A stretch of 64,000 nt of DNA, taken from positions 3,658,001 through 3,722,000 of the forward strand of contig NZ_CP059467.1 in the NCBI RefSeq assembly GCF_017894365.1, written 5' to 3'. The DNA is from Aromatoleum bremense. GTDB taxonomy: Bacteria; Pseudomonadota; Gammaproteobacteria; Burkholderiales; Rhodocyclaceae. The notes beneath the pieces are model-generated. The model did no database searches and had not been told where the DNA came from. It saw only the letters and a list, made by a program, of their open reading frames with translations. The position numbers and the translations under genes are program-made. Below are positions 49,109-50,570 of this stretch, piece after piece; the stretch's first letter is position 1, and the number at the start of each line of letters is the position of its first letter.

Positions 49109-49302
49109 ATGTCACGCTACGAACACCTCCGCCAATCGCTTCCCCACGCCCCCGCCCCTGGCTCGTCACCGGCGTCGCCGGCTTCATCGGCTCGAACCTG
49201 CTCGAAACCTTGCTCAGGCTCGACCAGCGTGTCGTGGGGTTGGACAACTTCGCCACTGGCTACGCGCGCAACCTCGACGAAGTGCAAACGTTGGTCGCTC
49301 CA
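49109..49302 (+). pseudogene. 5' fragment of a TviC-like epimerase gene, frameshifted
   Basis: The DNA from about 49150 to 49301 is nearly identical to 50768-50918 of the intact epimerase gene downstream, encoding [19 protein letters not shown] and the following Rossmann segment up to the QTLVAP/RTLVTP position. Similarity then stops abruptly. The apparent ATG at 49109 is out of frame with the conserved part because of a one-base loss around the C-rich stretch near 49150. The fragment therefore cannot make the enzyme. The junction at 49302 continues directly into the toxin remnant. Confidence 0.9.
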
Positions 49303-49460
49303 ACGGGCCTTGGGCAGCCTGCGATGCCTACACGGTGACACGCCTGGAATGGCACCACGCGGCACATAAGGAACTTCGCATTACCTATTACCTGAAGTTT
49401 GCAATCAGCAAGACCGGCAGCATGTTGCTGTCGATATCGAACCACCCGGAGGGAGCCTGA
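49302..49460 (+). pseudogene. C-terminal remnant of a toxin gene (MqsR-like, inferred)
   Basis: From the break point to the TGA at 49458-49460 one frame reads [20 protein letters not shown], then AHKELRITYYLKFAISKTGS and MLLSISNHPEGA. It has no start of its own. It ends 1 bp before the ATG of an MqsA-like antitoxin, exactly where a toxin gene should end, and YYLKFAISKTGSMLLSIS resembles the last beta-strands of MqsR (a YLK...hhhSF pattern). I infer that the first half of the toxin gene was replaced by the epimerase fragment. The identification as MqsR is tentative. Confidence 0.5.
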
Positions 49461-49461
49461 C

Positions 49462-50100
49462 ATGGAAAACCAACTGCAGCATCGCGGCGAATGCTGCCCC
49501 GCCTGCGGCGAGGGGCTCCTTCACGCCCGTGTCGAAACACAGGTCGTCGAATACGGTGGCCAGACGGGCGAGATCCCGCTGCATTACACCGTTTGCGATA
49601 CGTGCGGCTCCGAACTTGCCGGGCCCGCTGATGCACTGGCCAACAAGCGCGCAATGATCGCTTTCCGCAAGCAGGTCGACGGGCTGCTCGCGGGCGTCGA
49701 GATACGGGTTTTTCGTCAGCGCTACAAGCTCAAGCAGGAAACGGCCGCAGCCCTGTTCGGGGGCGGCAAGATCGGGTTTTCCCGCTACGAAAACGACGAC
49801 GTCGCGCAGAGCGCCGCCATGGACAGCCTGCTGCGCCTGTGCGCGGCTTCGCCAGGCAACGTGCTGACGCTGGCGAAGCAAAAGCAGATCGCACTTTCCG
49901 CCGAGACCGTCGCTGCGATCAAGGACCACTGCCGTGACCAGCTCATGACCATTGCACCCGCCGTCCAGAAAATGCTCGACAGGGAACTCGCAGCCCAACG
50001 CAAACAGGCTTCGGTGAACGCTGCAAACGATCGTGCCACGCGGGCAGAAGGAAACGTTAACCAAACCGTCGAGTTGTCTCGTTGGAGCAAGGCAGCATGA
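49462..50100 (+). CDS. MqsA-type antitoxin: zinc finger, HTH and C-terminal extension
   Basis: This 212-residue protein starts MENQLQHRGECCPACGEGLL after GGAGGGAGCC. The N-terminal zinc module has two Cys-X2-Cys pairs (CPAC and CDTC). A Xre-type helix-turn-helix follows at about residues 75-130 (FRQRYKLKQETAAALFGGGKIGFSRYEND). This is the MqsA/YgiT arrangement. Classical MqsA ends there at about 130 residues. Here about 80 more residues follow, ending SRWSKAA. In toxin-antitoxin-chaperone systems such an extension (ChAD) makes the antitoxin dependent on a SecB-like chaperone, and that gene follows with a 4-bp overlap. Confidence 0.85.
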   Translation: MENQLQHRGECCPACGEGLLHARVETQVVEYGGQTGEIPLHYTVCDTCGSELAGPADALANKRAMIAFRKQVDGLLAGVEIRVFRQRYKLKQETAAALFGGGKIGFSRYENDDVAQSAAMDSLLRLCAASPGNVLTLAKQKQIALSAETVAAIKDHCRDQLMTIAPAVQKMLDRELAAQRKQASVNAANDRATRAEGNVNQTVELSRWSKAA

Positions 50101-50570
50101 AGCCGAGCCCGATCACTTTTGTTGACCTCAAGTTCCTGCGGGTGCATGTCGAAGCCGATTTCCACGGCGAGGCAAAGCCAGCCGACGCCTTCGATTTTGA
50201 CGGCGCCTTGCTTGCATGGAGTTTGAACCACGGCCAGCGCGAGGACGGATCCTGGTGGATTGCAGTGGGTTTTGCGACCAACGACGGAACGGATGGCCCA
50301 AATTGCCCTTACAAGATCGACATGCAAGCCATCGGTGTTTTCGAGGTTTCGGAGTCGGTCGACGCCGGCATACGTGAAGAGCTCGTCTTCGAGAACGGCG
50401 CCGCCCTCGTGTATGGCGCGATTCGCGACATGGTTTCCACCATCACCGCGCGCAGCATCTCCGGTCCGCTGATGCTGCCCACGCCCACCTTCGTGGGCAG
50501 CTTTGCCGAGCATCGTGGAAAACTCGCGGAAATCCAGTCCGGGAAAAACGCCCGCTGTAGCTTCGATTGA
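50097..50570 (+). CDS. SecB-like chaperone of a toxin-antitoxin-chaperone (TAC) module
   Basis: This 157-residue protein overlaps the antitoxin gene by ATGA. It starts MKPSPITFVDLKFLRVHVEA. The middle (YKIDMQAIGVFEVSE) and the C-terminal ENGAALVYGAIRDMVSTITA, RSISGPLMLPTPTFVGSF, follow the SecB pattern (hydrophobic strand, LFPYAR-like helix, then LPPLxLxPhxF). General SecB genes usually sit near grpE/gpsA-type genes, not behind an antitoxin. Adjacent to an extended MqsA it matches MqsC of MqsRAC-type TAC systems, where it protects the antitoxin from degradation. Confidence 0.8.
   Translation: MKPSPITFVDLKFLRVHVEADFHGEAKPADAFDFDGALLAWSLNHGQREDGSWWIAVGFATNDGTDGPNCPYKIDMQAIGVFEVSESVDAGIREELVFENGAALVYGAIRDMVSTITARSISGPLMLPTPTFVGSFAEHRGKLAEIQSGKNARCSFD

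Follow-up and report, generated by a model that had tools for sequence, protein, structure and literature searches.

A toxin-antitoxin-chaperone module of the MqsRAC type with a truncated toxin gene in the tviB-tviC slot of Aromatoleum bremense

Introduction

The subject of this study is a toxin-antitoxin-chaperone (TAC) module in the genome of Aromatoleum bremense (assembly GCF_017894365.1, contig NZ_CP059467.1). It lies in a stretch of 64,000 nucleotides (positions 3,658,001 to 3,722,000 of the forward strand), called the window below, in whose numbering all positions are given unless a contig is named. Between a tviB-like and a TviC-like gene, the window holds an ATPase gene, a fragment of an epimerase gene, the end of an MqsR-like toxin gene, an MqsA-family antitoxin gene and a gene for a SecB-like chaperone. 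The locus is a damaged copy of a known anti-phage TAC type in which the record of the breakage can still be read, and we estimate at about 85% the probability that a rearrangement destroyed the toxin gene by the route proposed below. Genomes and loci used for comparison carry G and L numbers.

Results and Discussion

Antitoxin, chaperone and toxin remnant

We begin with the antitoxin, residues 12–131 of which match Pfam PF15731 MqsA_antitoxin (E-value 6.2e-18) and residues 12–135 NCBIfam TIGR03830 (3.7e-34), both above the cut-off. The solved E. coli MqsA matches it at 1.1e-6. The MqsA domain ends at residue 131–135 of 212, leaving a C-terminal extension of about 77–81 residues, in agreement with the tail of ca 80 residues described in an original prediction made from the letters of this DNA. 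Such extensions are described as a mark of TAC antitoxins, and in the extension of M. tuberculosis HigA1 two tryptophans are reported to be required for chaperone binding (Bordes et al. 2016, PMC5105189). In the alignment a tryptophan near the C terminus recurs, by eye, in most of the extended antitoxin relatives. With 24 rows aligned, the window antitoxin agrees with the other 23 at all 24 of their invariant columns and at 38 of the 38 nearly invariant ones, four cysteines among them; neither the zinc-finger cysteines nor the conserved helix-turn-helix columns have been lost. Matches to it occur in 5 of the 17 genomes of the genus, with 32–34% identity outside its own genome.

The chaperone gene overlaps the antitoxin gene by 4 bp (50097–50100), as had been predicted, so that the two form an operon-like array; an identical 4-bp overlap is found at L045. 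At the sequence level, Pfam PF02556 SecB gives a value of 0.047, below the cut-off, the PADLOC model PD-T4-9_C matches at 3.5e-5, and a phmmer search against solved structures gave no match at E ≤ 10. The AlphaFold2 model, built from 28 aligned sequences, has a predicted local distance difference test score of 87.3 and a predicted template modelling score of 0.80, and a Foldseek search with it placed SecB structures at all of ranks 1–19. The best of them is 5mtw_D (E 1.3e-5), the TAC chaperone Rv1957 with a peptide of the chaperone addiction domain. The predicted fold is thus SecB-like, as the original prediction had it. The window chaperone agrees with the other 27 rows at all 15 of their invariant columns and at 30 of the 31 nearly invariant ones. 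The genome also has a separate, ordinary SecB gene (C1:1007603-1008022). The window chaperone is rare, being found in three of 300 genomes of the order at E ≤ 1e-3 and in five of 369 genomes of the class at E ≤ 1e-8, with its own genome counted in both. In an indirect comparison by longest-contig size, 67 antitoxin hits out of 154 were set against 83 chaperone hits out of 84 (every one but the query), and 26 of the 67 antitoxin clusters agree in this size with a chaperone cluster.

We now turn to the toxin. The stretch 49302–49460 has no HMM (hidden Markov model) match in Pfam, NCBIfam or PADLOC, so that of the model searches proposed for the three genes the one for the antitoxin succeeded, the one for the chaperone stayed below the Pfam threshold and the one for the remnant was empty. 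By tblastn, on the other hand, all 18 of the antitoxin loci compared have it immediately before the antitoxin gene, with 45–61% identity and E-values from 4.7e-19 to 7.5e-9. A toxin profile of 44 rows, one of them the window remnant, has its sole match at E ≤ 1 in the genome (4,376,837 bases, a single contig) at the 49302 place, with an E-value of 7.2e-19 over profile positions 86–136 of 137; a second copy of the toxin was thus not found at this threshold. What is left are the last 52 codons and the stop, which confirms the estimate of about 53 codons made earlier, and the stretch is similar to toxins for which an MqsR-like fold is predicted. The nearest toxins are those of L005 (61%) and of viral contigs such as L062 (60%) and L051 (59%). 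The remnant keeps all 7 invariant and 16 of the 19 nearly invariant columns; this latter share, 84%, is the third lowest among the 44 toxin rows, the median being 100%.

The toxin family to which the remnant belongs is wide, with 1210 proteins found, and a Pfam domain was seen in none of the 120 listed. For the tested member of this family an MqsR-like fold is predicted, MqsR being seen on realignment of the Foldseek candidates. Pfam MqsR_toxin matches 7 of 17 toxin rows of the intact relatives at E ≤ 1, DUF7539 matches 8 of the 17 (best 0.0036), and no MqsR model is among the NCBIfam matches of these rows.

The palindrome at the toxin start

Of 37 loci, 33 carry a palindromic 15-mer, TTAYCA-N3-TGRTAA, ahead of the antitoxin gene. 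Three more (L052, L069 and L071) have the looser form TTAYC-N5-GRTAA, and a single locus, L049, has neither. The loci were drawn from L002–L019, L045 and L049–L071. Left out were L053, in which the antitoxin had no match, L057, L058 and L064, whose toxin start falls past the contig end, L070, which is on the contig of L052, and the distant antitoxin loci L040–L043. They include near-identical viral contigs (L054–L056, L061/L067 and L062/L063/L068). L073, added later, also has the palindrome and stands outside the count.

In most loci the ATG or GTG of the toxin sits inside the palindrome. At L045 the ATG within it opens 9 codons only and the toxin frame begins just downstream, an indication that the palindrome is conserved in its own right. 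The 33 strict sites are the only ones in the 435,194 bases of loci examined. E. coli MqsA binds a palindrome with the same ACC-N5-GGT spacing. The palindrome is a likely operator of the antitoxin, fused to the start codon of the toxin. The window has no such site, either with up to 2 mismatches to the TTACCA form or with up to 1 to the broader form. Judged from the sequence, the truncation removed the toxin start codon and the palindrome together. Both the wide toxin family and the palindrome built into the start of its genes could serve to locate modules of this kind with ease.

Complete relatives and known systems

Arrays of toxin, antitoxin and chaperone were found at L005, L045, L050 and L051 and in the Escherichia phage PhiR70_1. 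L005 belongs to a metagenome-assembled genome of Chromatiales; its third protein was missed by tblastn with the window chaperone, matches PD-T4-9_C at 1.9e-5 and is 25% identical to the third protein of PhiR70_1. The array of L045 is in a genome of the same class as that of the window and the one of L050 on a Cupriavidus taiwanensis plasmid. That of L051 (1033–3471) is on a viral contig, where it stands behind a gene that by eye resembles a repressor. In PhiR70_1 (L073 2510–4032), three genes labelled hypothetical lie between cI and kil; the toxin and the antitoxin match by tblastn and the third protein matches PD-T4-9_C at 7.3e-4. This spot beside the cI or repressor gene, in both PhiR70_1 and L051, we take to be the place that rexAB has in lambda. 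At L049 (721–6423), on a plasmid of Candidatus Thiodictyon syntrophicum, an ISAs1 transposase gene ends just before the toxin gene, in which both the usual start and the palindrome are missing; the module stands directly before drmA of DISARM, with the chaperone gene next to it. Antitoxin relatives were seen in 18 viral-contig loci and 44 plasmid records; the best identity to these is about 56%, over the domain only.

Among the closest known systems is MqsRAC of E. coli C496_10, which is reported as an established anti-phage system (PMC9519451, PMC10783111) and likewise has an MqsA-type antitoxin, a SecB-like chaperone and an MqsR-type toxin. Its toxin is present and the system is described as protective against T2, whereas that of the window is truncated. 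A whole toxin gene upstream of the antitoxin, as in a TAC of this type, is replaced here by the last 52 codons, and the locus is therefore a degenerate rather than a working member; such a copy cannot perform the anti-phage function of MqsRAC. When E. coli genomes were searched by DNA with the L057 TAC, nothing matched, and the family is thus not tied by sequence to the C496_10 system.

An MqsRA TAC of V. cholerae RC385 had been tested earlier and, as described in PMC5105189, it too combines an MqsA antitoxin with a dedicated SecB-like chaperone, its three-gene module being functional. The M. tuberculosis HigBA1-Rv1957 system (PMC5105189) shares the chaperone fold (5mtw being the best structural match) and the C-terminal extension of the antitoxin, but its antitoxin is HigA, its toxin is HigB, and the identity to its chaperone chain is 18% in the Foldseek alignment. 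CmdTAC/PD-T4-9 has a SecB-like third component as well, PD-T4-9_C, whose model matches the window chaperone; CmdT, however, is described as an ADP-ribosyltransferase (PMC11618068), and PMC9519451 states that the toxin and antitoxin sequences of MqsRAC are unrelated to those of CmdTAC/PD-T4-9. The original reading of the locus as an MqsRAC-like TAC is thus supported by the antitoxin models, the tblastn and profile matches of the remnant, the predicted folds of chaperone and toxin, and the epimerase copy considered next.

The slot and the junction

The features of the region are given in Table 1.

Table 1. Features between the borders of the tviB-tviC slot; all genes from the tviB-like to the TviC-like one are on the + strand
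Feature	Position	Strand	Basis
tviB-like UDP-sugar dehydrogenase, left border of the slot	46143..47420	+	Pfam UDPG_MGDP_dh domains (scan from 46152)
tviB-like gene, DNA comparison	up to 47416	+	96% identity to G306 and G304
ATPase, PADLOC phage-defence candidate PDC-S27, full length	47609..49099	+	PDLC04985 2.7e-228, profile 1-481 of 484
TviC-like epimerase 5' fragment, pseudogene	49109..49301	+	93% identity to intact gene; alignment
MqsR-like toxin remnant, last 52 codons and stop	49302..49460	+	tblastn, alignment, profile match
MqsA-family antitoxin with C-terminal extension of ca 80 residues	49462..50100	+	ATG 49462, stop 50100, 212 residues; PF15731, TIGR03830
SecB-like TAC chaperone	50097..50570	+	ATG 50097, stop 50570, 157 residues; predicted fold matches 5mtw and SecB
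TviC-like epimerase, full length, right border of the slot	50726..51757	+	NF011728 511.7 bits; G306 homology resumes 50616

The name TviC-like is given with care, since the 511.7 bits compare with a cut-off of 760 for the TviC model. The epimerase fragment has 193 bases and begins 9 bases behind the ATPase gene. Its part 49157–49301 is 93% identical to 50775–50919 of the intact gene, with one base missing near 49153 in the alignment, which bears out the earlier description of a toxin fused at 49302 to a frameshifted copy of a TviC-like gene start. The first 48 bases (49109–49156) are unlike the intact gene, G306 and G304, and the MSRY start resembles that of G312; the fragment is therefore probably the start of another allele and not a simple copy of its neighbour. 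Epimerase homology ends and toxin homology starts at 49301/49302, with at most 2–3 shared bases. An open frame at 49023–49460, from which a fused protein could have been read, was set aside because its reading frame is not that of the epimerase copy.

The slot was inspected in three (G306, G304 and G312) of the 16 other congeneric genomes searched. Homology of G306 and G304 to the window stops at the tviB end, 47416, and resumes at 50615/50616, that is, 110 bases before tviC. In G306 the slot holds a toxin gene whose match to Gp49 is weak (0.003, under the cut-off) and an antidote of the dnstrm_HI1420 type (8.8e-34). In G304 (L036 6190–6800) the same antidote is intact (1.1e-33) and the toxin frame is shifted within the first eight codons. 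In G312, tviB and tviC are adjacent. The tviB-tviC slot thus turns over toxin-antitoxin cargo in related genomes. That an antitoxin and a chaperone have outlived their toxin in a capsule locus, as originally noted, is indeed what is seen, but the setting is less odd than was claimed, since in two congeners the slot holds another toxin-antitoxin pair, in one of them with a broken toxin. Separately, the ATPase gene is 86% identical in DNA to C1:887697-889169 of G304, a different locus of that genome, where by eye it adjoins chain-length and flippase-like genes of a polysaccharide cluster.

How the toxin may have been lost

In the route that we propose, the ancestral order would have been tviB-toxin-antitoxin-chaperone-tviC, and the incoming DNA would have carried tviB, the ATPase and the start of a tviC allele. 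On the tviB side this DNA would have recombined by homology, and its other end would have been joined by chance, at 2–3 shared bases, within the toxin gene of the resident module. The joining would have killed the toxin and left the antitoxin and the chaperone downstream of the ATPase, the probable ribosome-binding site of the antitoxin surviving within the remnant. TAC modules should be expected to lose the toxin first, because loss of the antitoxin or the chaperone under a working toxin would poison the cell. Further cases fit, namely the G304 slot, L049, L009 and L012. In the last two, counted from the start of the palindrome, the toxin frame closes after 51 and 33 codons, respectively, with the antitoxin frame open; both are metagenome assemblies, in which errors are possible. 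The locus would then be a clean fossil of the death of a three-part addiction module, with the toxin start and the likely control site gone and the antidote and the chaperone whole.

It is important to point out that several observations weigh against this reading. The ancestral and donor arrangements were found in none of the genomes examined, and the order of events is thus something that we infer. A plain Foldseek search with the toxin model listed no match, MqsR included, at E ≤ 0.001, and Pfam MqsR_toxin stays below its cut-off for the intact toxins (best 5.7e-4, 20.7 vs 26.2 bits). Both forms of the palindrome have 0 exact sites in the genome, but a reversed control pattern also gave 0, which makes the genome-wide absence weak evidence; the palindrome is AT-rich and the genome GC-rich, and the absence says little beyond the locus. 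Finally, the region has one weak promoter-like site only, with 9 of 12 matches.

Present role of the pair and alternative explanations

There is no terminator-like site on the + strand between the ATPase and the chaperone, and the remnant still contains the purine-rich stretch that precedes the antitoxin ATG, which makes expression of the pair by read-through plausible. Should the chaperone still be produced, it would be expected to help the antitoxin fold and to shield it, and the antitoxin could in turn counteract a related toxin that arrives on a phage or plasmid. We give roughly even odds to plain decay, in which antitoxin and chaperone are functionless and look intact since the break is recent. 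The conserved columns kept by the remnant fit a young break, the toxin frame is broken with the antitoxin intact in two of the 18 genome loci (L009 and L012), and the G304 slot shows a broken toxin beside an intact antidote for another module. However, the nearly invariant columns are kept in full by the antitoxin and in all but one case by the chaperone, compared to 84% for the remnant, a hint that the pair drifts less. Orphan antitoxins are reported to be abundant in E. coli and proposed to be anti-addiction factors (PMC10790755), and the pair may, as the original prediction suggested for addiction, be a functioning anti-addiction or anti-TAC device, selected because related TACs keep arriving on prophages and plasmids. 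We regard this as unlikely. It agrees with the antitoxin relatives on viral contigs and plasmids, with the three-gene modules of L051 and PhiR70_1 and with the complete set of invariant columns in antitoxin and chaperone, but intact reading frames fit a recent loss equally well, the native operator-like palindrome is gone although nearly all relatives examined have it, and cross-neutralisation is uncertain because of the 56% identity, over the domain only, to the mobile copies. A broader version, in which the slot would be a turnover site that repeatedly disables toxins while antidotes stay, and in which the MqsA-SecB pair would be a chaperone-assisted vaccine, is more doubtful still; if true, the pair would guard against prophage TACs that, left unopposed, would exclude the cell or make it addicted. 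Provided that both proteins are still functional, the pair would also offer a test of the idea that orphan antidotes guard against incoming TACs.

Two further options were considered, both of low probability. The orphan antitoxin might now act as a DNA-binding regulator, or the chaperone might aid protein export, which we consider very improbable. The retained zinc-finger and helix-turn-helix columns would suit a regulator, and overproduced TAC chaperones are reported to be able to replace E. coli SecB (PMC5105189). However, the genome has its own SecB, and a search for regulation of other genes via the family palindrome, made by exact pattern, gave 0 sites; the control was likewise 0 and the operator in the clade of this genome may differ, so that sites of another form are possible. 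Least probable of all is that the junction at 49302 is an assembly artefact. The flanking direct repeat of 145 bp at 93% could confuse an assembler, but its copies can be told apart by the 7% of positions that are different and by the epimerase start 49109–49156, which is unlike that of the intact gene; in addition, the genome is a single contig.

A few other features of the region can be mentioned. After tviC, a partial second tviB copy (51822–52079) is 72–73% identical to G308 and G303 sequences, compared to 70% to the tviB of the window itself. A Fic-domain protein (44576–46135) ahead of tviB and an AAA_21/AbiEii-like ATPase (58264–59445) later in the polysaccharide cluster are possible conflict genes.
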